This document shows positions 20,089 to 53,790 of a stretch of DNA of 64,000 bases, piece by piece. Location: NCBI RefSeq assembly GCF_024323335.1, contig NC_066583.1, forward strand, positions 14,536,665-14,600,664. The letters run 5' to 3'. Position 1 is the first letter of the stretch. Every line of letters starts with the position of its first letter. Under the pieces are notes generated by a model that saw only the letters and a program-made list of their open reading frames with translations, was not told where the DNA came from and searched no databases. The translations under genes were made by a program, and so were the position numbers. Source of the DNA: Lathyrus oleraceus (lineage: Eukaryota; Streptophyta; Magnoliopsida; Fabales; Fabaceae).

Positions 20089-20093
20089 CATTG
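20089..20093 (+). other. Target-site duplication of solo LTR (CATTG), right copy
   Basis: CATTG follows the LTR terminus CTTACA and matches 14637-14641. Confidence 0.95.
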
Positions 20094-23385: not shown

Positions 23386-23487
23386 AAAATGAAAGTTGCA
23401 CACTAAACCAAACAAATTACAAGCACAAGTCAAAAATTCGAAAGCTAAAAATTAAGCAACTATTGCGATGCTCGCAATATCAATTCA

Positions 23488-27289: not shown

Positions 27290-27610
27290 TTGGCAGTTGT
27301 TCCAATGATATGGTGTGAGACTAGTGTAAGTCCATTGATTGGCATCTGGTATCATTGTTTTGTTTTAGGAGATTGGTGTAAATCCATTGATTGGTATCCG
27401 GTATCCACCTTTGTTTGTGAGACTAGTGTAAGTCCATTGATTGGCATCTGGTATCATTGTTTGATTTTAGGAGATTGGTGTAAATCCGTTGATTGGTATC
27501 CGGTATCCATGTTTGTTTAGGAGATTGGTGTAAATCCATTGATTGGTATCCGGTATCCATGTTTGTTTGTGAGATTGGTATAAGTCCATTGATTGGCATC
27601 CGGTATCACC
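27290..27610 (+). repeat. 50-52 bp tandem repeat in Ogre-A LTR
   Basis: Six copies of GTAARTCCATTGATTGG-type units start at about 27326, 27378, 27428, 27480, 27530 and 27580. The solo LTR has a similar array (about 15650-15990), and the Ogre-B LTR has two units 60 bp apart (34912 and 34972). Confidence 0.85.
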
Positions 27611-32715: not shown

Positions 32716-32738
32716 GGTGTGACAATTTGTGTCACACC
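32716..32738 (+). promoter_or_regulatory. 23-bp perfect palindrome in Ogre-B 5' LTR
   Basis: This is the same 23-mer as at 25998-26020: 9-bp arms around ATTTG. The 3' LTR copy is at 50999-51021. Confidence 0.6.
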
Positions 32739-34247: not shown

Positions 34248-34254
34248 TATATAG
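34248..34254 (+). promoter_or_regulatory. Putative TATA box of Ogre-B LTR
   Basis: TATATAG, followed by TGTGTGC, aligns with the TATA-like site of the Ogre-A LTR. The 3' LTR copy is at 52531-52537. If used, U3 is about 4.3 kb and the hairpin modules fall in the transcribed part. Confidence 0.4.
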
Positions 34255-34399
34255 TGTGTGCTTCCTGTGATTGTGATTGCCTGTTTGCTTTGCCTCTTTA
34301 GGCTAGCTTAGACTTGCCCTTGTGCAAGGTAGGGTGTGCTTGACTTGCTTCCTGTGCGAGTCAAGTTTGTGTGGCTTGCTTCCTGTGTGAGCCATGCTT

Positions 34400-35210
34400 A
34401 GAGTTTTTAGGCCGAACTACGGCAACTCTGATTCTCATGTTCAGATGAGATACGTAGGCACGAGACGCGATGTCTTGCCGAGTTTGACTAACAACTAACT
34501 CTAATCCTTTTCTCTCGCCCTCGTTGCGATTGAGACCTCCCCTTTCTCTTGCCCTAGTTGCAATCGAGACCCTTGCTTCCTGTGCAAGCCTTGTTTAAGA
34601 TAGGTTGGCCCTCGTGCCATTTAGCTAGAAACCTTAACTTAGGGTTGACTTTGCATGACAACATCTAGGCTCGAGTCGTAGCCTCCCTAGAGTTGTGTCT
34701 CCCTCTGTTATCTGGTTAGGCTAGAACCTTTGTCCCTGCGTAGGGGAACTACATCGCCCTGATCTTCACACCAGATGAAGTATGTAGGCAGGAGATTGAG
34801 CTGATCTCTCCGGGCGCCTTTTTCTTTTCTTTTGTGTGTGTTGCTTGACAGTTATAGGCTCGAGTCCCCGACTCCCTATTAACTTGTTGTGTCGTTGCTT
34901 GTTTGGAAGCCGATGTAAGTCCATCGAGTGGCATTTGGGTTCCAGTGTGCGTGTGTTTTGGTTCGGATGCTGATGTAAGTCCAGTGATTGGCATTCGGGC
35001 TCCACGTTTGCCTGTGGGTGTCTTGTTTGTTTGTGTGCGTGTCAGCCGAGCTACGAGTGCTCTGATTCTTCTCTCGTCCGAGGAGATACGTATGCATAGG
35101 ATGCGATATCCTAGCGAGCATGTGTCGTTTCCCCCAGTCCGAACTACTTCGACTCTGATGTCTATGCCTGATAGACTAAGTAGGCCCAGGATGCGACATC
35201 CTGCCGAGTC
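34400..35210 (+). promoter_or_regulatory. Four hairpin modules in Ogre-B LTR (7-bp stems, CGA loop)
   Basis: Repeated modules start with a GAACTAC- or GAGCTACG-like box, then an inverted repeat (for example TCTCAT/ATGAGA around GTTCAG, or GTCTAT/ATAGAC), then an ACGTAGGCA-like box. Three end in a 7-bp hairpin with a CGA loop: CGAGACG/TGTCTTG (34461-34477), TAGGATG/TATCCTA (35097-35113) and CAGGATG/CATCCTG (35187-35203). All are paired over the full 7 bp when G-U is allowed. The module near 34740-34790 lacks a clear CGA hairpin. The set is duplicated in the 3' LTR at +18283. Confidence 0.7.
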
Positions 35211-35509
35211 AGTTTCAGTCAGTCTCTTTTGTCTCTTTCAGCCAGTGTGTGTGAGTTTGAGCAGTGTTTAGCAACCAATTTTCCTTCCTTTTGTGCGTGG
35301 ATCCCGTAGAGTACTACGGATGCGTAGGGTGCCTAATACCTTCCCTTCGCATAACCGACTCCCGAACCCATTCCTCTTTGGTCGCGAGACCATGTTCTTT
35401 CCTAGGTTTACTTCGAGCGTTTCCTTTCCCTCTTTTGGGATAAATAACGCACGGTGGCGGCTCTGTTGTTTCTTTCTTTTCCCGCCGGTTTTTCGCGTAA
35501 TGCGACAGC

Positions 35510-35527: not shown

Positions 35528-36318
35528 CAGAGAGAAGTTGACCTCTGCTGGTCCATCTTCCCTGAGCGAGTCTCTCCTAGCGCTCTCTAGGATTAGGGTT
35601 TTGGTTGCTTTCTGTTTGTTGTATTTTATTGCATTCGTTGTATATATGTACATTTATTGATTGCATTAATTGTGTGCATTGATGTTTGCATTCATAATTC
35701 ATCATTTGCTGCTGTCTGGCTGGTTGTCTGTTTTTCTTTGTGGGGGGGGAGTCAGTCGAGGTAAAAGGTCCCATACCCAGACCATGAGTGAAAATCTAGG
35801 ATGATTAGGAATAGAGTGATTCATGGGAAGCGGGTGGTATTGCGCCACTTAGCGGAACATTGATATCACGAGCAGTTCAGACCCTGGTGGGATACTGTCG
35901 TTACATACTTCCGGTGTGTATATGATAGTATTTCTGCGAAAGGTTATTTATGCTGCGTTTCTCTCAGCTTTACCCTGGCCTAGACTACACCCGTGAGTGG
36001 GGAGGGGTTATTCATTACAGGTACCGTTGGTGACTTTGGTTCTGTTGGTGACTCTAGTTCAGACAACAGTGTGATCAGTTTGACCATAAGTTGGATTTAT
36101 GTTCTGATTTTGACTGAAGCTCCGACTTAGTATCAGAGTTTGCACAACCAGCCAATCCAGTCTGCATCATGTGCATCATAGCATATTTATTTTCCAAAAG
36201 AAACTCATTAAAAAAATCGAAAAAAAATCAAAAAAAAGAGAAAGAAAAAAGAAAAAAAACTAATCTCTGCATGCATATCATTTCTCAGGTACATTCCAGA
36301 GCTTGTCTACTGATAGAG
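35528..36318 (+). other. Ogre-B 5' leader
   Basis: About 0.8 kb without a gene. It has an 8-G run near 35742 and an A-rich stretch (36205-36262) just before ORF1. The tandem inverted repeat of the Ogre-A leader is absent. Confidence 0.7.
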
Positions 36319-37959
36319 ATGGCAACAATTCCCGAGCCGAAGCAGAAGACCTGTTCCTACAGTTTCCACCGTGAGCCGTTGACTCCGCTAGTTGAGTTGG
36401 GTAGCCTCGTGACAGACGACCGATTGAAGAGTTTTGTTGGGCGGTATGGAGACATCTTGACAGTGTTGAAGACCGTAGTGGATCCAGTGCCTCTGCAGAC
36501 ACTACTTCAGTTTTATGACCCAGAGCTCAGATGCTTCACTTTCCAGGATTACCAGTTAGCACCTACTCTCGAGGAGTATTCTATCCTGTTGAGTATCCCT
36601 ATCCAGCATCAGACCCCCTTCTTGGACGTCCCAAAGGAGGTTGACTTCAGTATTATTGCCAGAGCTCTCCGGTTGAGTGTAAAGGAAGTTGGTGAGAATT
36701 GGAAGCCTTGTGGAGTAGTTGTCGGTTTACCATTGAAGTTCCTGTTGAGAGTAGCCAGAGTTGGAGCAGAAAAGGGGAATTGGGAAGTTTTTCACGCGCA
36801 GCTAGCTGCCATGATCTATGGGATCATCCTTTTTCCCAGTATGCCAAACTTCATAGACTTTACTGCCATCAGTATTTTCATCCGAGGGAATCCAGTCCCT
36901 ACTCTCTTAGCAGACACTTACTATGCCATCCACAGTAGGCATGGTAAGGGTGGAGCCATCAGATGTTGCCTACCTCTTCTGTTCAAATGGTTCATGTCCC
37001 TTTTGCCAGCCAGTGGACCATTTATAGATACCAAGAGCACTCTGAAGTGGACTCAGAGGGTCATGTCGCTCACTTCCTACGACATCAGGTGGCAGTCGTA
37101 CCGGATGGATGTTAAGGATGTTATCATGAGCTGTGGTGAATACCGGAACGTGCCACTCATAGTGACCAAAGGCTGTATCAACTATAACCCAGTTCTCTCC
37201 CCTCGCCAGCTAGGGTTTGTTATGAGTAGAAGGCCACTCGAAGCTGAGATAGCAGAGAGTGTGTGTTTTGAGAAGAAGGATGACCCTGTTAGATTGGAGC
37301 AGATTGGAAGAGCCTGGAGATCTCTTGGGGTGAAGGATGGATCCGTCTTAGGGAAGAAGTTTGCCATTGCAATGCCCGATTACACCGATTGGGTAAAGAA
37401 GAGAGTGGAAACTTTGCTGCTACCCTACGATAGGATGGAGCCGTTGCAAGAGCAACCACCTTTGGTACTTGCTGATAGTGTACCTGCTGAGCACTATAAG
37501 CAAGCCCTGATGGAGGGTCGTCGTCTGAGAGAGAAGGATCAAGACACTCAGATGGAACTATATAAAGCTAAAGCTGACAAGCTGCACTTGGCCCATCAAC
37601 TTAGGGAAGTGCAAGGAGAGGATGCTAGTAGAGCGAGGGGGAAGAAGAGATCATATGAGGAGATGGAATCCCTGATGGATGCAGAGCATAGGGAATGTTT
37701 GAGACTGCAGAGAGCAGAAGTCAACTACCAGAAGAAGATCAGAGACTTGGAGAAGCAACTCAAAGACAAAGACACTCAGTTGAAGAAAGAGATGGAGTTG
37801 AGACAGAAGTCAGAGGATTATCTTGGAGGAGAAGTCTTGGAGCTGAGAAGACAGTTGAAAGAGAAGATCACTCCTCTGCCAGATTGTTCAGAATGCTCAC
37901 TGTTGATAGACCAGTGTCATTACCTGAAGACCCTCATTCCTGAAGACCGTCTGACTTAG
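36319..37959 (+). CDS. Ogre-B ORF1 protein (546 aa), role unknown
   Basis: The ATG at 36319 (MATIPEPKQKT) is chosen because it follows the A-rich leader and matches the Ogre-A ORF1 N terminus; the frame is open further upstream, but with Lys-rich low-complexity sequence. Residues about 15-390 form a globular domain (LLQFYDPELRCFTFQDYQLAPTLEEY, CCLPLLFKWFMS, RQLGFVM) that I associate from memory with DUF7745 or plant-mobile-domain-like proteins. Residues about 400-520 are strongly charged and heptad-like, a likely coiled coil. Ogre-A has a homologue of 482 codons. ORF1 before gag is a hallmark of Ogre elements. No enzymatic motif is visible. The frame is intact. Confidence 0.9.
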   Translation: MATIPEPKQKTCSYSFHREPLTPLVELGSLVTDDRLKSFVGRYGDILTVLKTVVDPVPLQTLLQFYDPELRCFTFQDYQLAPTLEEYSILLSIPIQHQTPFLDVPKEVDFSIIARALRLSVKEVGENWKPCGVVVGLPLKFLLRVARVGAEKGNWEVFHAQLAAMIYGIILFPSMPNFIDFTAISIFIRGNPVPTLLADTYYAIHSRHGKGGAIRCCLPLLFKWFMSLLPASGPFIDTKSTLKWTQRVMSLTSYDIRWQSYRMDVKDVIMSCGEYRNVPLIVTKGCINYNPVLSPRQLGFVMSRRPLEAEIAESVCFEKKDDPVRLEQIGRAWRSLGVKDGSVLGKKFAIAMPDYTDWVKKRVETLLLPYDRMEPLQEQPPLVLADSVPAEHYKQALMEGRRLREKDQDTQMELYKAKADKLHLAHQLREVQGEDASRARGKKRSYEEMESLMDAEHRECLRLQRAEVNYQKKIRDLEKQLKDKDTQLKKEMELRQKSEDYLGGEVLELRRQLKEKITPLPDCSECSLLIDQCHYLKTLIPEDRLT

Positions 37960-38433
37960 GCTGTATCTCTGTTGATTATTTTGTTGAATCACCTCCAGGC
38001 TTGTTGGGTGGGATTCATTTGTGTGTAATCCGTCTTTTGGATCTTTTTGTTGAGAATCACCTCCAGGCTTGTTGGATGGGATTCTTTCTCTTTGTACTCT
38101 GATTATCCGAATATTCTGCTGGTATTGGTTGTATGACTCTTTTACCCTTATGTATGTATAAGGATGTTGGATTCTCTCTGATGTTCTCATTTTTCCCTGT
38201 ATCTGTTTGTTCTCTTGTTGCAGGTTGCCATCTTTTCAGAATGGGTCAGGCTCTTTGAATGCCTGAGAAATGAGCATCTCATGTGCATCATGCATATCAT
38301 TAGACATCATAATCATATCATTTGCATAACAGGTGTTCTTGTGCCGTCTTCTCACTGTGGGTTCCTGTGTCCAGGCAGGATAGCTGATCAAAGACCACAC
38401 CGCTACTCAACGAGGCTCAACCATCAACGCAAC
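37960..38433 (+). other. Ogre-B ORF1-gag spacer with duplicated hairpin
   Basis: A 68-bp tandem duplication starts at 37986 and 38054; each copy holds GAATC ... GATTC arms around CACCTCCAGGCTTGTTGG. Near the gag end an AG acceptor-like CAG/GTGTTCTTG occurs (about 38330), and the frame just upstream of the gag ATG resembles that of Ogre-A (HRYxTRxN). The gag reading frame may therefore start upstream of its first ATG, or be joined by splicing. Confidence 0.5.
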
Positions 38434-40689
38434 ATGGATCAAGTACAAGCCGAGTTGGCAGAGATGAGGGCAAGCATGGCCCAGTTTATTCACATGATGC
38501 AAGGGGTTGCGCAAGGGCAAGAAGAACTCCGAGCAATGGTCCAGAGACAAGAAGCTGCACTACCACCGCCCAACCAACCTCTGCAAGAAGGAAATCCAGT
38601 TCCTGACGTTCCTGCTGCTGCTATTCCCGTCAACAACTATGCTGTGGGTGAAGAGTTGAGGGGTATCCGAGTTGACGGTCAACCAATTGCTCCAGATGTT
38701 GCTAGTGCCAGAGTCATTCAGGTTCCAACCCGTAACAGAATTCCTATTGTTGACAGACAAGAGGATTTGTTCACTATGCTCAGCGAAGACGACGACATCT
38801 TGGGTAGAAATGATGCGAGAGATCGCAAAGTGGAGGCCCTTGCTGAGAAGATCAGGGCGATAGAATGTCAAAACTCCCTCGGTTTTGATGTTACAAACAT
38901 GGGATTGGTAGAAGGACTGAGAATCCCGCACAAGTTCAAGGCGCCGTCATTTGATAAATACAACGGTACCTCCTGCCCTCGCACCCACGTGCAGGCGTAC
39001 TACAGAAAGATATCCGCATACACTGATGATGAGAAGATGTGGATGTATTTCTTCCAAGACAGCCTATCTGGGGCGTCTTTGGATTGGTATATGGAGTTGA
39101 AGCGGGATTCCATCAGATGCTGGAGAGACCTGGGTGAGGCGTTCCTCAGGCAGTATAAGCATAATATGGACATGGCTCCAACAAGGACTCAGCTGCAGAG
39201 TCTTTGTCAGAAGAACAATGAAAGTTTCAAAGAGTATGCCCAGAGATGGCGCGAACTAGCTGCAAGAGTTCAACCCCCTATGCTGGAAAGGGAGTTGACT
39301 GACATGTTCATCGGTACTCTTCAAGGAGTTTACATGGACCGGATGGGAAGCTGCCCATTCGGAAGTTTTTCTGACGTCGTTATCTGCGGTGAAAGAACAG
39401 AGAGTCTAATCAAAGCTGGTAGGATCCATGATGCTGGTTCCTCATCTTCTTCAAAGAAACCCTTCTCCGGGGCACCTCGCCGTAGAGAAGGAGAGACCAA
39501 TGCTGTACAGCACAGAGGGGGTGCGTACAGAGCCAACAACAACAGGGACCAGTATCGTCCAGTGGCCGCAGTGACCATTCCTGCACCTCAACCGCGTCCA
39601 CAACAACAAAGGGCTCAACAACAACAACCGCAACAACAACAACAACAACAGCAACGACCTTTCCAGCCTAGGCAGAGATTGCAGGCTGATAGAAGATTTG
39701 ATCCTCTGCCCATGTCGTACGCAGAGCTACTACCCGAGCTACTCCGGCTAGGGTTTGTAGAGTTGCGAACGATGGCTACTCCTACCGTGCTGCCACCCGG
39801 CTATGATGCTAATGTTAGATGTGACTTTCATTCTGGGGCACCAGGCCACCACACTGAAAGATGCCGGGCTTTGCAACACAAGGTTCAGGATTTGATCAAT
39901 GCCAAGGCGATCAATTTCTCTCCAGTGCCAAATGTCGTGAACAATCCTATGCCTCAACATGGTGGGCATAGGGTTAATAACATTGAAGATGGAGAAGCTG
40001 AAGACTTGATTGTGAATGTTGAAGATGTCCAGACTTCTCTGCTAGTCATCAAGGGCCGATTGTTGAATGGGGGTGTTGACCCAGGTTGTAATGAAGATTG
40101 TGTGGGCTGTTCAGAAGCGATCAACGGTTGTGACCAGTTGAAGACTGGTATTCAGAGGCTGATGGACGAAGGCTGTTTGCAGTTCAGCCGGGCTACCAGA
40201 GATAATGGGGCAGTGTCTACTGTCACTATTTTTTATAAGCCGTCCGAAGGAAGAGGGCGTGGGGCTGTCAGTGCACCCACCACCAGCAATACTCCGGTTA
40301 CCATCCCAACACCGGTAACCATCCGTGCACCTACTACTATTGTGGCGTCCGGCAGAGGACAAGTTGAAAATAGTAGAGCTGTGCCATGGAGATACGACAA
40401 TGCCTATCGCCGTGATAGGAGGGCTGGTAACCAGACAAAGCCAGTTAATCAAGCGCCAGTTACTATCAGTGCTCCTGTGAGAATTCCTGCTGTTGCAAGT
40501 CCTGTAGTGGACAATGTTGGAGGACAGGGAGGTTTCACAAGGAGTGGACGACTGTTTGTGCCTCAGCCTTTGAGGGATGCTACTCTGAGGCATCCGCCAG
40601 AGCTAAGGGCAAACAAGCAGTGGTTGACGAAGAACCGGCTCAGAAGGAGGCTGAGGGTTCTTTTCAGAGGGATGTTGAGGAGTTTATGA
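38434..40689 (+). CDS. gag: Ogre-B Gag (751 aa)
   Basis: The ATG at 38434 (MDQVQAELAEMRASMAQF) aligns with the gag start of Ogre-A. Order: short coiled coil (residues 1-45), Pro-rich linker, retrotransposon gag domain (about 165-300; SFDKYNGTSCPRTHVQAY, YFFQDSLSGASLDWY, FKEYAQRWRELAARV), Gln-rich stretch (about 385-410), and a zinc-finger-like CX2HX9HX... segment, CDFHSGAPGHHTERC (about 463-477). Gag builds the particle and binds RNA. The last about 35 residues are out of frame with the protease region that follows; in Ogre-A gag and protease share one frame. The break maps to about 40570-40592. Confidence 0.88.
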   Translation: MDQVQAELAEMRASMAQFIHMMQGVAQGQEELRAMVQRQEAALPPPNQPLQEGNPVPDVPAAAIPVNNYAVGEELRGIRVDGQPIAPDVASARVIQVPTRNRIPIVDRQEDLFTMLSEDDDILGRNDARDRKVEALAEKIRAIECQNSLGFDVTNMGLVEGLRIPHKFKAPSFDKYNGTSCPRTHVQAYYRKISAYTDDEKMWMYFFQDSLSGASLDWYMELKRDSIRCWRDLGEAFLRQYKHNMDMAPTRTQLQSLCQKNNESFKEYAQRWRELAARVQPPMLERELTDMFIGTLQGVYMDRMGSCPFGSFSDVVICGERTESLIKAGRIHDAGSSSSSKKPFSGAPRRREGETNAVQHRGGAYRANNNRDQYRPVAAVTIPAPQPRPQQQRAQQQQPQQQQQQQQRPFQPRQRLQADRRFDPLPMSYAELLPELLRLGFVELRTMATPTVLPPGYDANVRCDFHSGAPGHHTERCRALQHKVQDLINAKAINFSPVPNVVNNPMPQHGGHRVNNIEDGEAEDLIVNVEDVQTSLLVIKGRLLNGGVDPGCNEDCVGCSEAINGCDQLKTGIQRLMDEGCLQFSRATRDNGAVSTVTIFYKPSEGRGRGAVSAPTTSNTPVTIPTPVTIRAPTTIVASGRGQVENSRAVPWRYDNAYRRDRRAGNQTKPVNQAPVTISAPVRIPAVASPVVDNVGGQGGFTRSGRLFVPQPLRDATLRHPPELRANKQWLTKNRLRRRLRVLFRGMLRSL

Positions 40690-41768
40690 AGATAATAAAG
40701 AAGAGCGACTACAAGATTGTGGATCAGCTCAATCAAACTCCTTCAAAGATCTCGATACTCTCTTTGCTGATGTGTTCTGAGGCACATCGGGACGCCTTGC
40801 TAAAGATGCTGAACATGGCATATGTCCCGCAAGAGATATCGGTCAACCAGCTAGAGGGTGTACTAGCCAATGTGAGTACCAGGCACGGTGTGGGTTTCAC
40901 TGACCTAGACCTAACGCCTGAGGGACGCAATCACAACAAAGCCTTGCACATCACTATGGAGTGTAAGGGAGATGTTTTATCTCACGTGCTAGTGGACACC
41001 GGGTCGTCCCTGAATGTCCTGCCCAAGCAGATCCTGAAGAAGATAGCTGTCGAGGGAGTCGTGCTCACTCCCAGCGACCTGATTGTGCGTGCATTCGACG
41101 GATCCAAACGTTCTGTGTTTGGTGAAGTCACATTGCCGGTAAAGATAGGTCCGGAAGTGTTCGACATTGTTTTCTACGTGATGGACATTCAGCCTGCTTA
41201 TAGTTGTCTGTTGGGGCGTCCGTGGATTCATGCAGCTGGAGCGGTCTCGTCGACTCTCCATCAGAAGCTCAAATATGTCTGGAACGGTCAGATCGTGACC
41301 GTCTGTGGTGAAGAGGAGATTCTGGTGAGTCATCTCTCCTCATTCAAATATGTTGAGGTGGATGGCGAGATCCACGAAACCCTGTGCCAGGCATTCGAGA
41401 CTGTGGCGTTGGAAGGGGTTGCTTGTGCTGAGCAGAGGAAGCCGGGTGCTTCAATTTTGTCATACAAGCAAGCCAAGGAAGTTGTGGACTCTGGCAGAGC
41501 AGAAGGCTGGGGCAAGATGGTTGACTTGCCGGTTAAGGAAGACAAATTCGGCATTGGGTACGAGCCTCTCGCAGCAGAGCAGAGCGTACAAGCAGGTCCG
41601 AATACCTTCACCAGCGCTGGGCTGATGAACCATGGGGATGTCTTCGCTACTGATGGTGAAGACAGTGATCACGATTTGGATGTCTGGGTCCGCCCTTGTG
41701 CACCAGGTGAATCTATCAACAATTGGACAGCTGAGGAAGTGGTCCAAGTTACTCTACTGACAGAGTAA
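40590..41768 (+). CDS. Ogre-B aspartic protease region
   Basis: The frame opens before 40590 and reads ASARAKGKQ ... VVDEEPAQ, so no own start codon is expected. The catalytic motif LVDTGSSLNVLP has its Asp at 40995-40997, and the flap/C-terminal motif YSCLLGRPWIHAAGAV follows. The frame is one base behind gag (-1). I see no slippery heptamer in the overlap, so either a 1-bp deletion or an unrecognised frameshift site is possible. The TAA stop at 41766-41768 lies within the intron donor GTAATT, and splicing removes it. The protease cleaves the polyproteins. Confidence 0.87.
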   Translation, partial: ASARAKGKQAVVDEEPAQKEAEGSFQRDVEEFMKIIKKSDYKIVDQLNQTPSKISILSLLMCSEAHRDALLKMLNMAYVPQEISVNQLEGVLANVSTRHGVGFTDLDLTPEGRNHNKALHITMECKGDVLSHVLVDTGSSLNVLPKQILKKIAVEGVVLTPSDLIVRAFDGSKRSVFGEVTLPVKIGPEVFDIVFYVMDIQPAYSCLLGRPWIHAAGAVSSTLHQKLKYVWNGQIVTVCGEEEILVSHLSSFKYVEVDGEIHETLCQAFETVALEGVACAEQRKPGASILSYKQAKEVVDSGRAEGWGKMVDLPVKEDKFGIGYEPLAAEQSVQAGPNTFTSAGLMNHGDVFATDGEDSDHDLDVWVRPCAPGESINNWTAEEVVQVTLLTE

Positions 41769-42012: not shown

Positions 42013-45000
42013 AAGTGATCTTTTGGCATCCACTGTGAACGACTCTGTTATGGCTCAGTATGATTTCAACAATCCCATATACCAAGCTGAAGAGGAGAGT
42101 GAGGAAGACAGTGAACTCCCTGTAGAATTGGTCAGACTACTGAAGCAAGAGGAAAGGATCATCCAACCTCATCAGGAGGAGTTGGAAACAGTTAATCTGG
42201 GTACTGAGGACGCCAGAAGAGAGATCAAGATCGGTGCTGCTTTAGAAGACTCTGTCAAGAGGAGGCTAATAGAGATGCTGAAAGAATATGTGGAAATATT
42301 CGCCTGGTCATACCAAGATATGCCTGGGCTGGATACAGGCATTGTGGTGCATCGGTTACCTCTCCGAGAAGATTGTCCATCGGTCAAGCAGAAGCTTCGC
42401 AGAACTAGTCCTGATATGGCTGTCAAAATCAAGGAAGAGGTTCAGAAGCAGTGGGATGCAGGTTTCCTGGCTGTTACAAGTTACCCACCGTGGGTTGCCA
42501 ACATCGTTCCCGTGCCAAAAAAGGATGGTAAAGTCAGGATGTGTGTCGATTACCGAGATTTGAATAGGGCGAGTCCGAAAGATGATTTCCCATTACCTCA
42601 CATTGATGTATTGGTGGATAATACGGCTCAGTCCTCGGTATTCTCTTTCATGGACGGTTTCTCAGGCTATAACCAGATCAAGATGGCACCTGAGGACATG
42701 GAAAAGACGACATTCATTACACCTTGGGGCACGTTCTGCTACAAGGTTATGCCGTTTGGGCTGAAGAACGCCGGTGCTACCTATCAGAGGGCAATGACGA
42801 CTCTCTTTCATGACATGATGCACAACGAAATCGAAGTGTACGTGGATGATATGATTGCGAAGTCGCAGACAGAAGAGGAGCACTTGGTAAATCTGCAGAA
42901 GTTGTTTGACAGACTGGTCAAGTTCAAGCTGAGGCTGAATCCGAACAAGTGTACATTTGGGGTGAGATCCGGGAAGCTCTTAGGCTTCATTGTCAGTGAA
43001 AAAGGGATTGAGGTTGATCCAGCAAAAGTCAAAGCTATTCAAGAGATGCCTGAACCGAAAACGGAAAAGCAAGTCCGTGGGTTTTTAGGGAGGTTGAACT
43101 ACATTGCAAGGTTCATATCTCATCTAACTGCCACATGTGAACCAATTTTCAAACTACTCAGAAAGAATCAGGCGATCAAATGGAATGATGACTGTCAGAA
43201 GGCATTTGACAAAATCAAGGAGTACTTCCAGAAACCTCCAATCCTGATTCCTCCAGTTCCAGGGAGACCACTGATAATGTACCTTTCAGTCACCGAGACT
43301 TCGATGGGGTGCGTATTGGGGCAGCATGACGAGTCTGGTCGAAAAGAGCACGCCATATACTACCTAAGCAAAAAGTTTACCGACTGTGAAACAAGATATT
43401 CACTGCTCGAGAAAACTTGCTGTGCTTTGGCCTGGGCTGCTCGCCGACTAAGGCAGTATATGTTGAACCATACTACTCTGTTGATTTCTAGGATGGATCC
43501 TGTGAAATACATCTTTGAGAAGCCAGCTCTCACCGGACGTGTTGCCCGTTGGCAGATGATCTTAACCGAGTATGACATTCAGTACACGTCACAGAAGGCC
43601 ATCAAGGGTAGTATTCTATTAGACTATCTCGCCGAACAACCGATTGATGATTATCAGCCTATGATGTTTGAATTCCCCGATGAAGACATCATGTATCTGA
43701 AGACGAAAGACTGTGAAGAGCCGCTTGTCGAGGAAGGACCGGATCCTGATGACAAGTGGACACTGATGTTTGATGGGGCTGTGAATATGAATGGTAACGG
43801 TGTTGGTGCAGTGCTGATCAATCCCAAAGGTGCTCATATACCTTTCTCTGCCAGATTGACTTTCGATGTCACCAACAATGAAGCTGAGTATGAGGCTTGT
43901 ATCATGGGTATAGAAGAAGCCATTGATCTGAGGATCAAAACACTCGACATATTTGGAGATTCAGCTCTAGTGATCAATCAGGTCAATGGAGATTGGAATA
44001 CAAACCAGCCGCATCTGATTCCGTATAGAGATTACACCAGAAGAATACTGACGTTCTTCAAGAAGGTGAAGTTGTATCATGTCCCCCGGGATGAGAATCA
44101 GATGGCTGACGCTTTGGCTACTTTATCCTCCATGATAAAAGTTCATTGGTGGAATCATGTGCCACATATTGCTGTGAATCGACTCGAGAGGCCTGCATAT
44201 GTGTTTGCAGCCGAGTCTGTTAATGCTATTGATGATAAACCGTGGTATTATGACATCAAGAACTTCCTCAAGACTCAAGAGTATCCTGAGGGTGCGTCGA
44301 AGAATGATAAGAAGACCCTGAGAAGGCTGGCTGGAAGCTTTTATCTGAATCAGGACGATGTGCTATACAAGAGGAACTTTGACATGGTTCTGCTCAGATG
44401 CGTGGATAGACACGAAGCAGACATGTTAATGCAAGAAGTGCACGAGGGTTCGTTTGGTACCCACGCTGGTGGTCATGCAATGTCGAAGAAATTGCTGAGA
44501 GCCGGATATTACTGGATGACTATGGAATCCGATTGCTTCAAATATGCTCGGAAGTGCCATAAGTGTCAAATCTATGCTGACAAGGTGCATGTACCACCAA
44601 GCCCGCTGAATGTCATGAACTCGCCTTGGCCGTTCGCCATGTGGGGCATCGATATGATTGGGAGGATTGAACCAACTACTTCGAATGGACATCGCTTCAT
44701 CTTAGTTGCGATCGATTACTTCACCAAATGGGTGGAAGCAGCTTCCTATACCAACGTCACCAGACAAGTGGTTGCCCGGTTCATCAAGAAAGAAATCATC
44801 TGTCGTTATGGAGTTCCCGAGAGAATCATCACTGACAATGGTTCGAATCTCAACAACAGAATGATGAAAGATTTGTGCAGAGATTTCAAGATCGAACATC
44901 ACAATTCTTCTCCTTACAGACCAAACATGAATGGTGCTGTAGAGGCAGCTAACAAGAACATCAAGAAGATTGTGCAGAAGATGGTCGTAACGTACAAAGA

Positions 45001-45493
45001 TTGGCATGAGATGTTGCCTTTCGCTTTGCATGGGTACCGTACCTCAGTGCGTACGTCGACCGGGGCAACCCCCTACTCCCTTGTATATGGTATGGAAGCA
45101 GTCCTACCAGTTGAGGTGGAGATCCCTTCTCTGAGGGTATTATTGGATGTCAAGCTGGACGAAGCCGAGTGGATTCGTACAAGGTTTAATGAGTTAAGCC
45201 TTATCGAAGAAAGACGGTTAGCAGCTATTTGCCATGGGCAGTTGTATCAGAGAAGGATGAAGCGAGCCTTTGATCAGAAAGTGCGTCCTCGGACATTTCA
45301 AACTGGCGATCTAGTTTTGAAGAGGATCCTTCCTCCCGGTACAGATAACAGGGGCAAGTGGACTCCTAATTACGAAGGTCCGTATGTTGTGAAGAAGGTT
45401 TTCTCCGGTGGAGCCTTGATGCTTACAACAATGGACGGTGAAGACTTTCCTTCCCCTGTTAACTCAGATGTAGTCAAAAAATACTTCGCATAA
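42013..45493 (+). CDS. pol: Ogre-B Pol: RT, two RNase H domains, integrase (about 1159 aa exon)
   Basis: The frame is open from the splice acceptor to TAA at 45491-45493; translation is expected only as a spliced extension of Gag-Pro. Residues: RT with YVDD at about 276-279; gypsy RNase H, about 410-540 (MYLSVTETSMGCVLGQ); archaeal-type RNase H, about 580-715, with FDGA (Asp587), NNEAEYEA, FGDSALV and MADAL; integrase zinc finger with VHEGSFGTHAGGH and CHKCQ; DDE core with Asp880, Asp941 and Glu977 (DX35E). The C-terminal part (RGKWTPNYEGPYVVKKV) is chromodomain-free. Two RNase H domains are a known trait of Tat-lineage elements. No defect is visible. Confidence 0.95.
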
Positions 45494-45502
45494 ATTGACC
45501 CG

Positions 45503-45700
45503 CTGGACAAAAAGAATAATAGAGTCCAGGCAAAAATGGGCATCCCGGCGAACCAAAAACAGAAAGAAAAGGTTCGGGCAAAAGTTAGGGATAAAAATGA
45601 AAAAATTGTACACCCGGTAAGTCGAAAACCCGCAAGGGCGGCTTAGGCAAAAATGGGTATCCCGGTGGATTGAAAACCCAAAAGGGCGATCCAGCCAAAA
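45503..45700 (+). promoter_or_regulatory. Ogre-B post-pol hairpin cluster
   Basis: H1 is CTGGAC/GTCCAG (45503-45508, 45524-45529). H2 is CGAACC/GGTTCG (45549-45554, 45571-45576). H3 is TAAGTCG/CGGCTTA (45618-45624, 45639-45645), with inner CCC-GCAA-GGG. H4 is TGGATTG/CGATCCA (45666-45672, 45687-45693), with inner CCC-AAAA-GGG. Compared with Ogre-1, H3 changed to C-G and U-G pairs and the inner stem changed CCT/AGG to CCC/GGG, so pairing is kept. Confidence 0.72.
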
Positions 45701-47119
45701 GAGGGATTAAAGCGAAGACTACAGTCTGAGTTATCTGTACTTCATCATGCTTCGTCAGCTACCATCTCGACAGATGTGATCGGTCCAGTCATTCTTCTCA
45801 GAAAGCAAGGAATTGGGAGGAAACTGATGATCTATGAGTTATAACAGAGTTGGGAAACAGTGGATGCCGTGTTCACATTGCCATTAGGATAGTTTATTTT
45901 TCCTTTTGTGCGCAATTACCTCTTTCTAGGAATTGCTTCCCAATGTATTGGCCTCTTCAGGCACACTTTCAATCAATAAAAGTCGTTATTCAGATAAATT
46001 GCTCTCTTGTTTTTACTTTTACTGTTTTGTTTGCAAAAACGTCCGAATTTTTGATAAGCATTGCATATAAAAACATGAAGGCTAAACAATGACGTACAGA
46101 AAGATTAAAACATGTGAAAATCATTTTGAATGTTGAGGACACTTGACCGTATCTTGTCCGTGTACTCCCTGGGGCATCTTTTGTTCCGATTTGCAGGTCG
46201 TCACCTGTGAATATTTTCCCCAGTAAGGTCGTCACCTGTGAGCATTCCCCAGCAGTGCTTTCCCCAGACGGAATCATTCTCCTAACTTTGGATTTGTTCA
46301 AAGCCTTCCCCAGCGAAGCAGTTATTTCTCCAGCAGAGTTCATCCCACCAGTGGATTGGACAGGTCTCCATAGCAGGTCGATACTTGCATCCCCAGCTGA
46401 GTTGTTTCTGCTTGTATTGTATGGGTCGTCCCCGGCAGAATAGCAGTTATTCCCCAGCATAGTCTATTTTATCTGAGGTTTGTATGAGCCTTATCCCCAG
46501 AGAGTTGCCTGTTTTAGCTTCCTCAGCGGAGTTTTTATGGATTGATTGGGCTATCCCCAGCAGTTTACCTTTGTTCTCCCCTAGCAGAGTTGCTTTATTA
46601 CTCCCCAACGAGTTGCCTTGTCTTCCTCTAGTGGAGTTGTATTGTTGATTCCCCAGCAGTTGCCTTCTTTTCCCCCAGTAGATTTATCTTGAAGATCCCT
46701 CAGCACAGTCGTCCTGTGTACCTCTCCCCGCAGAGTTCTTATCATTTTTGCATTGCATATAGTAATCATTGCATCCTCAAAACTGCGTAGCATTTCCATC
46801 CCATATGGAGCATTACGCCATAGAAAAATTCAAACATATGCATTCATGTGTTCGAAACCACATCAGACCGTATTCCCCGGCAGAGGCGGATCATATTCGT
46901 TCAACATCAGCACCAAGTCTGCTACAGTTGCTTCGACAGCATTCAGAATTTGCTTATCCCCACAAAGGTTTATTTCCTCACCCAATGGTGACAAGAAGTT
47001 TGTTTCTCCCCAGTGAGACCCCCCAGCAAGTGATCAGCCTCGCTTCAGCATATCCCAGATTTTATTCTTGTGATACCAGTAAGTGTCATGTCAGCACCCG
47101 CGTGTGTTTCTCATTTTTT
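45701..47119 (+). other. Ogre-B 3' UTR, first part, with primer-tRNA-like motifs
   Basis: No gene is visible. From about 46195 to 46740 variants of TCCCCAGCAGAGTTG recur about every 25-40 bp, for example 46217-46234 (14/18 to the complement of the primer site). A later copy at 47450-47467 also matches 14/18. The conserved GCGTA/TACGC hairpin is at 46785-46818. Confidence 0.6.
46785..46818 (+). promoter_or_regulatory. Conserved 3' UTR hairpin (GCGTA/TACGC)
   Basis: Same arms as at 4718-4750 in Ogre-1, with inner TCCAT/ATGGA and a different loop. Confidence 0.5.
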
Positions 47120-48141
47120 GGTGTCGGTAAACGCCATTCTTTCGGTGTCGGTAAACATCGAGTTCCACCCAGTCATCGGTAAATGTCTGGCCATTTTCGG
47201 TGTCGGTAAACACCATTGCTTCGGTGTCGGTAAACATCGAGTTTCACCCAGTCATCGGTAAATGTCTGGTCATTTTTGGTGTCGGTAAACGCCATTGTTT
47301 CGGTGTCGGTAAACATCGAATTCCACCCAGTCATCGGTAAATGTCTGGTCATTTTTTGGTGTCGGTAAACGCCATTGTTTCGGTGTCGGTAAACATCGAG
47401 TCCTTTTCGTCAGTCATCGGTAAATGTCTGATAATTCCCCAGCTAGAAATCCCCAGTAGAGTCATCTGTAAATGTCCTACCTGGTTTCCAGTTGCAAATA
47501 TTTGTTTGTATTTCCCCAATAAATTTCTCATCCCAGTCATCGGTAAATGTCTGGTCATTCTTTTTGATGTCGGTAAACATCATCTTTCGATGTCGATAAA
47601 CATCGAGTCTCATCCCAGTCATCGGTAAATGTCTGGTCATTCTTTGTTCTCTTGCTAATAAAATCGAAATCCCCAGAAGTCGTCGGTAAACGTCTTGTCT
47701 GGTCTCACCACAAAGATTTTGTTCCTCCCCAAGCGGAGATGCCATCGGTAAATGGCCCAGTTTCTTCGATATCGGTAAATATCGAATTCCCAGTTGCAGC
47801 AGCCATCGGTAAATGGTCTTGCTAAGTTGACATCGGTAAATGTCCAATTTCTTTGAAGCCACCATCGGTAAATGGTCTTGCTTCTTTTCTACATCAAATT
47901 TGTTTCCCAGCAGCCATCGGTAAATGGTCTGGCTGAAGTTGATATCGGTAAATATCAAGGTCCCAGTTTTCACCATCGGTAAATGGTTTGGTTTTTCAGA
48001 AGTTTGTTTTCCCCAGCCGCCATCGGTAAATGGTCGTGCTGAAGTTGATATCGGTAAATATCAAGGTTCCAGCTCTTCAACCATCGGTAAATGGTTTTGC
48101 TTTTCTGAAGCTGTCATGCAGTTTGTCATCGGTAAATGACG
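47120..48141 (+). repeat. Array of about 28 CGGTAA-loop hairpins (79-bp tandem core)
   Basis: CGGTAA occurs about 28 times, plus CGATAA and CTGTAA once each, nearly always flanked by inverted repeats. Perfect stems include GGTGT/ACACC (47199-47214), TGATGT/ACATCA (47565-47582), GCCAT/ATGGC (47741-47756), TTCGATAT/ATATCGAA (47765-47786), GACAT/ATGTC (47829-47844), TTGATAT/ATATCAA (47939-47958), AACCAT/ATGGTT and GTCAT/ATGAC. Others have G-T wobbles or one T-T mismatch (CCAGTCAT/ATGTCTGG). The first part is a 79-bp tandem repeat (47174, 47253, 47332) of three hairpins; the rest is irregular. It is not a CRISPR array: this is a plant retrotransposon UTR and there are no unique spacers. Confidence 0.9.
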
Positions 48142-48258
48142 TGGTTCTCCTGTATTATATTCAGTCGGTGCAAATTTCTACGGTTCTTTTGTATTCAATC
48201 CCTGTTTACCCTGAAAGTCTGACAGCCACTGCTATCATCCGTTCGGGTTCCCAGCTGA

Positions 48259-48273
48259 TTGAATAGGGGCAGC
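48259..48273 (+). promoter_or_regulatory. Ogre-B polypurine tract
   Basis: GAATAGGGGCAGC lies directly before the 3' LTR TGTAGCACC, matching the Ogre-1 tract. Confidence 0.85.
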
Positions 48274-51200
48274 TGTAGCACCTCAAATTTGCACCTATCT
48301 CTGTACATATCATTTCATATTAAGTCATAGCATATCATGATCCATTGCATAGCATTTGCATTGTCCCCCAGTTGCCTCAAGAGCAAGCAAGCAAGAATTA
48401 GGTCAAACTGATCAGGAGATCAGTCAACCAATCAAGCAAGGGTGTTTCTCAAGGAATCAAAGCCCTAGGGTTTGTCCAACAAGTTCACATGACTTGGAGG
48501 TTCATTTGAAGTGTTCAAGTCAAGGGTTGAAGGCTCAGAGGTCATCAGTCAATGCACAGCCAGGCAAAAACCCTAGAAAGCCAACAATCAGTCAAAGCAG
48601 TGGATGGTGGCCATTCTTGTGGAATTTGGGCACCATGATCAATAATCAAGAGTCCATACAACATGGGACATCATTTGAAGTCAAGGTCTCAAAGAATTAG
48701 GGTTTGGAATTCATCAGAAGGGCACAGTCAGTCCAAAACCCTAGAAAAGTCAAAGTTGGTCAACTATGGTTGATTCTATGGTTTTGATGGATGGAAATGG
48801 TTTGAAAGAGCTTATTCATGTCCTAATAGGCCTCATATATCATGGCAATCAGCCTCATTGAAGAATTTGAAGCCAATCAGAAAATTTCCCAAAATAGAAA
48901 GTGGACCTGTAATTTCAACTGCCAAAAATGGAAACTTCTTGATCCTCAACTTGCATCATGATACAAGCTCCAAATGAATTTTTGCCCAACATGAAAGTTG
49001 AAGATCTTGTTCTCCCATTTTCAAAAAGTCCAAGAACTCTCAAATCCCATGTATGGTTGTCAAGATATGATCAATTCAATTTCAAAAATTTGTGAACTTC
49101 AAAGGGCCATATCTCTCAAACCATAAGGCCAAATTTGGTGGGGTTTTTTCCTACAAACCACATTTTTCCTCCTCTTTCCAAAAATGTAAACATCATGTAC
49201 CAAAACCTTGCCAATCAAAATGGCATTTTTTGACCTATTTCATTTAAAAATCAAGTTTGACTCAAGTTTGACTTTTTGATTTAAGCATTTTTTACACAAT
49301 TGGCCAATTGGGATTCATTTTAAATGATATTTGCAAGATGTTCCAAGCTTAAAATCATGCTCATGCTTTCATCATATCACCATTTTGTGCATAGGTGCAA
49401 AATTGGCAAATTTGGCAATATGGATTCATAAGAGCAAAGCAAGTTCAGCACTCCATTGGCAACTTAAAACAGATGAATTATAGGTCATTGGCAGCCTGTT
49501 TGAGGCCCATTTCGTGGCAGCACTACACCTCCACTTTCCATATGACCAAACTTAGCATTTTTTGCAAATGGTTCATTAAGTTAAACTTGGATTAGCATGT
49601 TATTAGGCAAGCTTAAACAGACAAATATAAGTGAATTTTCTGTCAATTCACAACCCTAGCAGCAGCCATACACGATCAAAACACTCCCATTCTCTCATCT
49701 TGCAATTTTGCACATTTGGGATTTCTGACCAACCCTTCAAAGAACCCGAGCAACCCATGATTCTTTCTTCACCTGGACAACATATTGAGCTCATTTTCAC
49801 CATCAAAACCCTGCTGAAAGTTCCATCTCTCGACTGTTTCCTCAAGGTGTCATCCATGGCAGCTCAGGATTAGAGCCAAACCAAGCTACCTCGAGCCAAG
49901 CAGCTTCATCCATACAACATTTGAGGTCTTTGTGTTCATCTGTATCAAACATTTGCAAGCAGAAAACACCAGAATCTTCCACTGCTCTTCAATTTGGTAT
50001 TTCTTCGAATCCTTTATTTTTCAAAGCTATGCCATGTTTAATGAAGGTCTTTGAATGCTGGTTCTTTTAAACTATGCCTTGCTTAAAATGATTAAGAGAT
50101 GTGTGAGAAATCTGAATTTACATTTTCATGTTCAAACTTGTTTCCTTCGATTTCTCTTTTGTGAGCTTGTTTTAATGTTTTGATTGCTGGATATGTGATA
50201 CTTATTGTTGGTAGATGCTATTGCCATGTTTAATTTGGATTTCTGGGCGATTTGGTTTTGCTCATGTTTGAAGGATGGTGATGATACCCTGCTGTTTGAA
50301 CCTCCAAACCGGCCCAGATTTTGCATGAAATTAGGTTTGGTTGTTGCTAGCTGATGTTTGCATGAGTTTATTTCCATGTTTGTTCGTGAGTTATTGCTTG
50401 AATTTCATGTTGGATGATTGCATGAAGATGAATTGCGTGATGTTTATGAAAACCCTAAGTTGCATGAATGCTGCCCAGAATTATGAGCCTCGATTGGCTG
50501 TTGTTGTTGTTTGCCCTGCATGTGTACTGTTCCATTGGCCATCAGCCAATGAGATTATTTCGTGGCCATGGCTTAAACGCTGTGTTTTGATAAATGAAGG
50601 CCAAAATTACAAATATGCCATGCGCTGACCATGTTGACTCATTAAATCATGTTGCATTTGTTCATGTTTGCTACAATTGTTCATCAACTTGCAAAATTCA
50701 TTTCTCCCTCAATTCAAACCCAAAAATCATGAAAATTTTTCCATCATCTTCACATGGATGTCTAGTATTTAATTATTATTTTTAATTAATTTTTCATTGG
50801 CTGGATTTTAAATGGTAATTGGTTTTCTAACATGAATGCACATTTGACACCCTTTGCCGTTCCTTTTGTGAAATACTCATGTTGCATCCATTGCCCCTGA
50901 AAATTTTTGTGGTGAAACTAGACTCACTCATCTTTGTTTTGATATAGAGTTTATGCATTTATCATTTGTGGTTTGCTAGATATGAATTTTTGAACTAGGG
51001 TGTGACAATTTGTGTCACACCAATGATGTGCATTTTCTTGATTTTTGTTCACATGTCTCCTGGCCTCCAATTGACCCCAAATTTTGCATGAATGATCTCT
51101 TACATGTCTAGTTTGTGTATGAATTTTCTTGGAATTAATTGTGCTGTTTTCCATTTGATTGTGAATTTTCTTCCCTGCCTAGTCAATGGTTGACTTTTTG

Positions 51201-53790
51201 TGCTACATGTTGCCAAATCATTTGGGAAATTCTTATACCATATTGTATGATCATGAAATTTCATATGTGATAACTAGACATCTTGAGCTTTGCATTGGTG
51301 TTAATCTCATTCATTTCTCATCTGTTTTCAATTTGATATGATTTTTTGAAGTTGACCCATGTTTGTTGACCCTCATTGTGCTTACTTGAATTTGGTTTGA
51401 CTTCATGATTTTAATTGACTGCCTTCCTCTCATCCAAATGCAATGAAATTTGACATGCTTATCATGCTAGATGTTAGGTTTGAGTGTGATTTATTTGATG
51501 ATTTTTTTGAAATTGTTTGAGTTGACTTTTGCTGCAAGTCATTCTGTTGACTTCTTTGAGCTTTCATTTGCCTTACTTTGACTTCAAATGTTCATGAAAT
51601 GATGATAATGCATGATGTGAATGTGGGCCCAATTGTGATAGCTTCTTAAATGTTTGACTTTGACTTTGGTTGACTTTTCTTTGCTGTTTTGACTTTTTCT
51701 TTCATCCTTGACCCTAGGCTAGTCCTAGTGGTCTTCTGAGCTTACCATTGAGTTATTGTTTCAGGTTAAGCATCAATGCTTCCAAGATCATACAAATGTG
51801 ATTGAATTTGCTTACATATGAGCTAACCTTTGTTTTGTAGATGGCTTGACTCATGTGTTTGAGTCTTGCTTTGCACAATTGACCATCTGTTTTGTCTGTG
51901 AATCCCATTCCTTTTGCTTTTAACTGTTGAATTGCATACTGATTGGTTTGACTTTTTCAGGTACTTTAGTTGCCTAAGTTCTCTGAACTTGATTTTCTTT
52001 GCTTTTTAGCAACTTGCTTGAGGTATAATCTCTTTTACTTCATGTAGTCTGGAGACTCGGCTTGTTACTTGGCCGGGCAAACTGTCTGAAGTCCTCCTTA
52101 AGAGGCAATGCCTGTGTATGTTTAATTTGTCCTTGTACAGAGTCAAAGACCTCCTAAGTGAAGAGGCAATTGGCAGAACCCAAGGGATAAGTAGCCTATC
52201 CCCTGCTATTCAGTGTGTCTTCTGTTTTGCTCACACCATTGTGTTGATGCATCTCAGATAAAAACCCAAGATCTTGTGCAATTGCACAGTTGAGTCAGTA
52301 CCAAATGTGTAGAAGGGTTCCCGCTTTCTGAACCCACACATTCTTGTCAAATGCTCTCCCTGGCCAGGGATAAGAGCAATAAGGCACACCCCTCATCTCC
52401 TTGCATCTGCTTCACCTTGGCTCTCAATGTCAAGGTTAAGAGCACTCTTCACCCACTTCCAGAGGTTTGTTTGTTGAGGTTGATATGACCCCTCGACTAA
52501 AACCTAGCCTTTGCTTGAGCCACTTGTATGTATATAGTGTGTGCTTCCTGTGATTGTGATTGCCTGTTTGCTTTGCCTCTTTAGGCTAGCTTAGACTTGC
52601 CCTTGTGCAAGGTAGGGTGTGCTTGACTTGCTTCCTGTGCGAGTCAAGTTTGTGTGGCTTGCTTCCTGTGTGAGCCATGCTTAGAGTTTTTAGGCCGAAC
52701 TACGGCAACTCTGATTCTCATGTTCAGATGAGATACGTAGGCACGAGACGCGATGTCTTGCCGAGTTTGACTAACAACTAACTCTAATCCTTTTCTCTCG
52801 CCCTCGTTGCGATTGAGACCTCCCCTTTCTCTTGCCCTAGTTGCAATCGAGACCCTTGCTTCCTGTGCAAGCCTTGTTTAAGATAGGTTGGCCCTCGTGC
52901 CATTTAGCTAGAAACCTTAACTTAGGGTTGACTTTGCATGACAACATCTAGGCTCGAGTCGTAGCCTCCCTAGAGTTGTGTCTCCCTCTGTTATCTGGTT
53001 AGGCTAGAACCTTTGTCCCTGCGTAGGGGAACTACATCGCCCTGATCTTCACACCAGATGAAGTATGTAGGCAGGAGATTGAGCTGATCTCTCCGGGCGC
53101 CTTTTTCTTTTCTTTTGTGTGTGTTGCTTGACAGTTATAGGCTCGAGTCCCCGACTCCCTATTAACTTGTTGTGTCGTTGCTTGTTTGGAAGCCGATGTA
53201 AGTCCATCGAGTGGCATTTGGGTTCCAGTGTGCGTGTGTTTTGGTTCGGATGCTGATGTAAGTCCAGTGATTGGCATTCGGGCTCCACGTTTGCCTGTGG
53301 GTGTCTTGTTTGTTTGTGTGCGTGTCAGCCGAGCTACGAGTGCTCTGATTCTTCTCTCGTCCGAGGAGATACGTATGCATAGGATGCGATATCCTAGCGA
53401 GCATGTGTCGTTTCCCCCAGTCCGAACTACTTCGACTCTGATGTCTATGCCTGATAGACTAAGTAGGCCCAGGATGCGACATCCTGCCGAGTCAGTTTCA
53501 GTCAGTCTCTTTTGTCTCTTTCAGCCAGTGTGTGTGAGTTTGAGCAGTGTTTAGCAACCAATTTTCCTTCCTTTTGTGCGTGGATCCCGTAGAGTACTAC
53601 GGATGCGTAGGGTGCCTAATACCTTCCCTTCGCATAACCGACTCCCGAACCCATTCCTCTTTGGTCGCGAGACCATGTTCTTTCCTAGGTTTACTTCGAG
53701 CGTTTCCTTTCCCTCTTTTGGGATAAATAACGCACGGTGGCGGCTCTGTTGTTTCTTTCTTTTCCCGCCGGTTTTTCGCGTAATGCGACA
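48274..53790 (+). repeat. Ogre-B 3' LTR (5517 bp)
   Basis: Nearly identical to 29990-35507. Differences seen by eye include T/C at 30333, a T-run length change near 30865, T/C at 31937, T/C near 32261, G/T near 32489, two G/A near 32662-32681, A/C near 32912, G/T near 33708 and C/T near 33774. All landmarks of the 5' LTR recur at +18283 or +18284. Confidence 0.97.
50999..51021 (+). promoter_or_regulatory. 23-bp perfect palindrome in Ogre-B 3' LTR
   Basis: Identical to 32716-32738. Confidence 0.6.

Follow-up and report, generated by a model that had tools for sequence, protein, structure and literature searches.

The window analysed here, a stretch of 64,000 nucleotides from pea (Lathyrus oleraceus), contains a young retrotransposon of 23.8 kb (29990-53790) that is flanked by a 5-bp target duplication (TTGCG/TTGCG) and bounded by LTRs of 5.5 kb. 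The two LTRs are 99.8% identical to each other, and the element is therefore recent. It is an Ogre, of the Tat lineage of Ty3/gypsy elements, with the long LTRs, the extra ORF1 and the second RNase H of that group. Its features, all on the forward strand, are:

29990-35507, forward strand: 5' LTR, 99.8% identical to 48274-53790, beside the TTGCG duplication
36169-37959, forward strand: ORF1, DUF7745 (PF24924), the extra ORF typical of Ogre (profile match, E 5e-114)
38215-40689, forward strand: Gag ORF (PF03732), with an arginine-rich C-terminal half
40620-41768, forward strand: probable aspartic protease ORF (PF13650 and PF13975 matches, below the curated cut-offs)
42023-45493, forward strand: reverse transcriptase, RNase H, second RNase H (RVT_3) and integrase, by domain matches
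45494-48273, forward strand: 3' UTR with array A, from the pol stop (45493) to the 3' LTR (48274)
47072-48140, forward strand: array A, 31 short hairpins in the 3' UTR, with stems of about 5-8 bp in at least 12 different 5+5 types
48259-48273, forward strand: polypurine tract TTGAATAGGGGCAGC, about 120 bases beyond the last hairpin of array A
48274-53790, forward strand: 3' LTR, 99.8% identical to the 5' LTR

The ORF1 product is 94% identical to a Lathyrus oleraceus protein over 94% of the query and 88% identical to the Pisum sativum protein Q6WAY4. In the pol product the second, archaeal-type RNase H (RVT_3, residues 583-700) lies after RT_RNaseH (413-517) and before the integrase domains. 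Gag has 48 arginines within its last 424 residues, and a search of this Gag for a CCHC knuckle found none. Passages of PMC2206039 and PMC3305785 name a primer-binding site complementary to tRNA-Arg and a gag-pol intron as Ogre features, and a passage of the former puts Ogres at 20-33% of the pea genome. Ogre 3' UTRs are described, in parts of PMC7004042, PMC9659126, PMC3305785 and PMC2206039, as hypervariable tandem repeats and a source of satellites; PMC11963269 does the same for the related Retand lineage. Of the Ogre repeats, a passage of PMC3305785 says that 'possible functions, if any ... are not known'. These variable 3' UTRs have thus far been treated as a satellite source without known function.

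Array A lies downstream of the pol stop and upstream of the 3' LTR, in the Ogre 3' UTR in which the first-pass annotation had placed it; the known tandem repeats of Ogre 3' UTRs have this position too. The motif CGGTAA, said in that annotation to occur about 28 times, occurs exactly 28 times on the forward strand between 47125 and 48135; in the whole window, on both strands, there are 42 copies against 9.2 expected. The annotation had also called the loop invariant, which needs correction. Besides the 28 CGGTAA loops, the 31 hairpins include one CAGTAA (47077-47082, stem GATAC/GTGTC, just upstream of the CGGTAA run), and two near-loops lie on paired stems inside the array, CTGTAA at 47466-47471 and CGATAA at 47594-47599. 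Since all three variants sit on paired stems, the loop of array A is not strictly invariant and is better written as CNGTAA with a single CGATAA. When both strands of the window were scanned and the clusters ranked by distinct stems per loop, array A came first and a cluster of RTTCAG at 4953-5412 second. Judged by the best cluster for each loop, the hairpins sit together in the 3' UTR and do not appear dispersed over the element. A known RNA family was rejected, as no Rfam match reached the gathering threshold in 46700-48300 (five sub-threshold matches, all on the minus strand) or in three loci.

The stems of array A change from hairpin to hairpin and still pair, as had been claimed. In 30 hairpins, the CAGTAA hairpin being excluded, 177 of the 240 flanking positions (eight per hairpin) form Watson-Crick pairs, compared with 112.6 (sd 8.0) when the right arms are re-dealt; none of 10,000 permutations reached the observed count. 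The result is the same for the 21 distinct flank pairs (120/168 against 77.4, sd 6.7; 0/10,000). The flanks in this check were permuted and not dinucleotide-shuffled, and pairing lay far above the re-dealt level. The 30 hairpins comprise 12 distinct 5+5-bp stems, and the mismatches at positions 1-5 are ten G·T, no A·C and eight others, in keeping with the earlier remark that G-T wobbles are tolerated. The T-T mismatch that had been pointed out is real, occurring in the stem GTCAT/ATGTC of 7 of the 30 hairpins. The region does contain tandem duplications (79 bp x3.9 and 106 bp x2.9, units that cover the array in parts), and the hairpins of array A are therefore not 28 independent events.

The second-ranked cluster corresponds to another array:

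4949-5416, forward strand: array B, 20 loop sites of RTTCAG and decayed variants, at the homologous 3' UTR position of a second Ogre

This second Ogre starts to the left of the window, with its pol at the window's left edge, and is 78% identical to the array-A element across pol and the downstream DNA. The blocks before the two arrays are homologous (4699-4775 with 46767-46843, 85.9% over 78 aligned bases), as are the blocks after them (5497-5622 with 48165-48290, 75.4% over 126 aligned bases); a direct comparison of arrays A and B gave no match at E 1e-3. Nineteen of the 20 loop sites have four standard pairs, on stems mostly of 4 bp (TGGC/GCCA, CGAT/ATCG, CGAC/GTCG, CGGT/ACCG, CAGT/ACTG), and pairing over all 20 sites is 87/160 against 62.0 (sd 5.1) with re-dealt arms (0/10,000). 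A 68-bp tandem unit covers part of the array. In the genome the type-B hairpin CGATGTTCAGATCG occurs 22,644 times, its reversed control 90 times. Across nine copies with 245 NTTCAG loops, stem positions 1, 2 and 4 are Watson-Crick paired in 92-94% and position 3 in 88%; G·U exceeds A·C by 31 to 21 among these loops and by 17 to 13 among the distinct 4+4 stems, so that the G·U excess in type B alone is weak.

Folding with ViennaRNA gave array A a minimum free energy z-score of -4.0 in the sense orientation, with 28 of 30 hairpins having a stem-pair probability of at least 0.5, and of -5.5 in antisense, with 24 of 30. As the array folds in silico on both strands, folding energy alone cannot identify the strand. 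Taken whole, array B does not exceed its shuffles in stability (z +0.9; 11/20 hairpins at P of at least 0.5), and we rejected thermodynamic stability as a criterion because it works for array A and fails for array B. We also rejected the idea that Ogre 3' UTRs are generally rich in hairpins: among 70 one-kb tiles tested with stems of at least 6 bp and 12 shuffles per tile, only 47001-48000 was flagged, array B and the third Ogre's 3' UTR remaining unflagged. The array-A element apparently inserted into this third Ogre and split it, and the third Ogre runs on past the window's right edge; no clear array was found in the Ogre at the window's end.

Related copies, a comparison that the first-pass annotation had proposed, bear out the pattern, as the stems change with compensation in seven further genomic copies of array A. 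The pattern ATCGGTAAAT has 97,599 genomic occurrences, and its reversed control has 6,549. The eight copies, window included, hold 25-44 hairpins each when counted with a loop at most one base from CGGTAA and four of five pairs. Collected with no stem requirement, their 256 CNGTAA loops comprise 207 CGG, 27 CAG, 18 CTG and 4 CCG; positions 1, 2, 3 and 5 are Watson-Crick in 90-99% and position 4 in 66%, mostly through the recurrent T·T mismatch, which the commonest stem of the family keeps (49/256). At stem positions 1-5 of these loops G·U occurs 61 times and A·C seven times, and the 55 distinct 6+6 stems of type A have 15 G·U and 7 A·C.

Alignment of the copies yielded 12 shared hairpin columns, one of which (column 136) is doubtfully aligned. 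Pairwise differences on one side of a stem were Watson-Crick/G·U in 78 cases, Watson-Crick/A·C in 14 and Watson-Crick/other in 18; those on both sides were Watson-Crick/Watson-Crick in 56 and Watson-Crick/other in 10. In 11 columns, with stricter gap handling, there were 27 double Watson-Crick changes in register, against 0, 0, 7 and 10 when the arms were slid by -2, -1, +1 and +2. In a single orthologous hairpin with otherwise aligned flanks, the same pair is U-A in five copies, U·G in L010 and L011 and C-G in L013. Some of the double changes may be due to exchange of modules between hairpins. Divergence is 5.7% in the loop (biased low, the columns having been chosen by loop), 8.0% in the stem, 33.7% in the spacer (inflated by misalignment) and 8.6% in the downstream flank. 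Neutral CpG decay of CGGTAA is expected to yield TGGTAA and CAGTAA about equally; the hairpins with five paired positions in the eight copies include 15 CAGTAA and 3 TGGTAA, which is suggestive and disfavours a neutral-decay reading of the loop changes. The TGGTAA pattern GATATTGGTAAATATC occurs 226 times genome-wide.

To sample Ogre 3' UTRs independently of their loops we used a degenerate polypurine/LTR motif, TTGAAYAGGGGCAGYTGT, with 36,017 occurrences in the genome and none for its reversed control. The sample consists of the first 23 motif sites on contig C1 in coordinate order and is not a random draw; the motif was derived from three elements with arrays (both window elements and L019), a bias that limits the sample to Ogres sharing this motif. 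In a blind test requiring at least three distinct stems around one loop, with n of at least 4, in the 1.6 kb before the motif, 18 of the 23 sites passed; the pass rate was 1/920 for dinucleotide shuffles and 2/74 for control tiles from the window. Three of the failing sites nevertheless hold fully paired type C hairpins (five in L033, 18 in L038 and six in L046). L044 has the same flank as L052 and one fully paired hairpin, and in L045 no recognised array was found in the 1.6 kb before the polypurine motif. An array is thus present in 21 of 23 sites, or 22 if the single hairpin of L044 is counted. The loop types are:

Type A, CNGTAA: L010 and L011 (L018 also holds A hairpins)
Type A2, YGTT: L018, L037 and L041
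Type B, NTTCAG: L036, L042, L043 and L049
Type C, TRRYRYAY: L033-L035, L038, L040, L046 and L047
Type D, TGAG on C-G: L039, L048 and L050
Type F, ATACGA: L052 and L044
L051: A-like hairpins together with GTTT hairpins

Among 5,000 permutations of distinct flanks, the observed pairing was reached by none for types A, B, C and D, by 7 for A2, by 38 for F and by 227 for L051, and type C in L019 alone gave 4/10,000, the loop expressions for types C, D, F and E having been picked after the data were viewed. Chance pairing within ordinary tandem repeats might be expected in a region known to be rich in them, but no permutation of array A in 10,000 matched the real one, and unrelated arrays in other subfamilies show the architecture again; this explanation is rejected by the permutation and shuffle tests, and we regard its probability as negligible.

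Within a subfamily the loop is near-constant, between subfamilies it differs, and the stems vary and yet pair. Because the same architecture appears with other loops in other Ogre subfamilies, it is the architecture that is conserved, and not CGGTAA. At least five loop types coexist in one genome, and loop type mostly tracks the polypurine-flank group, of which there are four: A with A2; B; C; and D with L045 and L051. L043, with a B array beside a D-like flank, is an exception, so that loop type is not strictly tied to flank group; it may represent an exchange of arrays between subfamilies. In L018, L037 and L041, YGTT tetraloops on stems longer by one base pair seem to derive from CGGTAA hexaloops (CAT-CGGTAA-ATG to CATT-CGTT-AATG), possibly a step in loop switching. 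Searches of viral and genome contig collections for relatives gave no match to the patterns used.

In 21 of 22 sites the last fully paired hairpin lies 115-365 bases upstream of the polypurine tract, within the 1.6 kb examined. Hairpins make reverse transcriptases pause, and a role of the array in reverse transcription (RNase H action, strand transfer or pausing near the polypurine tract) would agree with this position. Any hairpins would suffice for such a role, however, and the common loop on differing stems within an array would be left without a reason; we judge it improbable.

The kind of imperfect pair found in the stems bears on the strand and on the molecule under selection. G·U and A·C are each one transition away from both paired states, and similar counts of the two are therefore expected if there is no selection on the sense RNA. 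Genome-wide, GAYAT-CGGTAA-ATRTC matches 18,521 hairpins, of which 1,367 have U·G, 86 have C·A and, by subtraction, 17,068 are Watson-Crick; at the fifth pair G·U (GCCAT..ATGGT) occurs 10,380 times and A·C (ACCAT..ATGGC) 403 times. Because copies descended from few founders are included, these genome-wide figures show tolerance and not numbers of events. We pooled hairpins with a single non-Watson-Crick pair from types A, B, C, D and A2 in 32 array sets, with L018 in both A and A2 and type C without L033, L038 and L046, and obtained 131 G·U, 24 A·C and 83 others. Reduced to distinct stems, the pool holds 39 G·U, 13 A·C and 20 others (binomial p 0.0002 for G·U over A·C), with G·U:A·C ratios of 8:2 in A, 12:6 in B, 6:3 in C, 6:0 in D and 7:2 in A2.

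On the sense strand, G·U is thus commoner than A·C among the broken pairs, which indicates selection on sense-RNA hairpins, and we are confident that the hairpin array is selected on the sense-strand RNA. The proposal in the first-pass annotation that a loop presented on a stem is selected in RNA gains support from both the pairing and this asymmetry. Its use of the G-U pairs against a DNA cruciform stands as far as the G·U:A·C asymmetry goes, on which we too rejected a cruciform, although array A folds in silico on either strand. More broadly, a function at the DNA level, in cruciforms or dyad-symmetric sites for a DNA-binding protein, would draw on an inverted symmetry that is visible in the DNA as well. 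Stem sequence is highly variable, however, and the favoured mismatch, G·T, is a wobble only on the sense RNA strand, so that we give this reading very little weight. The asymmetry also bears on an origin with no selection, in which template switching in quasi-palindromes maintains complementary arms and common descent accounts for the similarity of the loops. The tandem duplications are real and arrays may sometimes become satellite-like runs, as this account would have it, but arm copying would not prefer G·U to A·C on one strand, and the D-type hairpins are irregularly spaced in dissimilar flanks and have TGAG in common all the same. We consider it very unlikely.

Taken together, these data are best accounted for by a cis-acting RNA element of Ogre retrotransposons, a row of roughly 5 to 40 short hairpins that precedes the polypurine tract; in this row the loops would be the recognised letters and the stems mere scaffolds that drift freely. 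The reader would be a protein encoded by the element, most likely Gag, gripping many hairpins simultaneously; such multivalent binding would select the element's own genomic RNA for packaging, and changes of the loop would prevent cross-packaging among related Ogres that are expressed together. We put the probability of this reading as a whole at about 0.5.

The loop varies with subfamily inside one host, so an element-encoded reader is likelier than a host factor, and as loop type goes mostly with flank group, a co-evolving partner fits better than a single common host factor. Gag, with its arginine-rich C-terminal half, is the obvious candidate, and selective packaging would be the obvious use; that Gag reads the loops, the weakest step of the argument, is a proposition we would place just short of even chances. 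An argument for Gag from a zinc knuckle was dropped, no CCHC motif having been found. Instead of Gag, the hairpins could bind a host protein that acts in nuclear export, RNA stability, translation or localisation, or a silencing factor that they titrate. The 3' UTR position and the selection on sense-strand RNA fit a host protein equally well; Gag has no zinc knuckle, and a soybean Ogre with a gag-pol intron, described in a passage of PMC3305785, makes export of unspliced RNA a plausible need. A shared factor should hold the loop constant, however, and at least five loops occur at the same Ogre position in one genome, which leaves a host reader possible but unlikely.

The arrays look like a fast-evolving recognition code in RNA structure. 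More tentatively, Ogres may run a rapidly evolving structural password, a subfamily-specific loop present in tens of copies on disposable stems and read multivalently by Gag, where a switch of loop founds a subfamily isolated in packaging and the hypervariability of the 3' UTR and its satellites are by-products of an arms race. If the repeats do present subfamily-specific loops on RNA hairpins, they would be a natural setting in which to study self-RNA recognition by retroelements, with a bearing on the lack of cross-packaging among related elements and on the fast evolution of this region; the reading predicts that, when the loop is swapped and the stems are kept, recognition goes with the loop.

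Among known systems, the nearest mechanism is that of multiple packaging signals. In hepatitis B virus, many stem-loops carry RGAG loops for which multivalent reading by the core protein is proposed in part of PMC7612645. Ogre arrays likewise show a common loop motif on several stem-loops whose stems vary. Further viruses with multiple, dispersed RNA packaging signals exist. Unlike these signals, the Ogre hairpins are packed in one 3' UTR and not dispersed across the genome RNA, and their loop motif changes between subfamilies; Gag binding is a proposal here. The cis packaging sequences of retroviruses and Ty1 are structured RNA thought to be read by Gag, and consist of few unique structures, mostly in the 5' leader, whereas the Ogre arrays have many equivalent hairpins in the 3' UTR.

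The 3' UTR repeats and satellites of the Ogre/Tat lineage (PisTR-A, FabTR and the GmOgre minisatellites) share with the arrays their lineage, their position between pol and the 3' LTR and their family-specific variability. In PMC7004042, PMC9659126 and PMC3305785 these repeats are described as tandem DNA with no known function, whereas the arrays share a loop on changing stems. The words 'hairpin' and 'stem-loop' are absent from the main texts of PMC7004042, PMC9659126 and PMC11963269, and 'palindrom' appears twice in the last. Among the open-licence papers that the searches listed, no title or abstract opening describes this architecture, a scope that leaves the founding Macas 2009 paper outside. 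The variable tandem repeats of Ogre 3' UTRs were already known; the clustered, subfamily-specific hairpin array within them appears to be new.

Several further structures were observed. Between 247417619 and 247428043 on contig C1 there are 13 matches of ACCATCGGTAAATGGC within 10.4 kb, perhaps an expansion of array A to a run resembling a satellite. At about 0.2-1.6 kb of L009, in the third Ogre beyond the right edge, there are a few hairpins with loops like CTACWACCCG on the stems CTAC/GTAG, ATAC/GTAT and AAC/GTT, which may be what is left of, or a small example of, a further array type; this stretch has no hairpin excess. The window also holds a gypsy-type element on the minus strand (12406-23433, with Gag-protease at 20551-23433 and reverse transcriptase-integrase at 12406-14661) that is apparently split in its reverse transcriptase region by a 5.4-kb stretch resembling an Ogre LTR (14639-20088). 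In two other elements (8110-8520 and 11616-12240, minus sense) a palindromic motif like GCTCGCTAGGCGAGC / CTTCGCTAGGCGAAG is repeated, with some variation of the arms and the pairing kept. Tandem repeats of Ogre-type LTRs at 27314-27612 (forward strand), 15663-15970 (minus strand), 34901-35016 and 53184-53299 contain hairpins around TAAGTCCA-N4-TGGCAT, whose outer stems differ by copy and mostly still pair (ACTAG/CTGGT, ATTGG/CCGGT).
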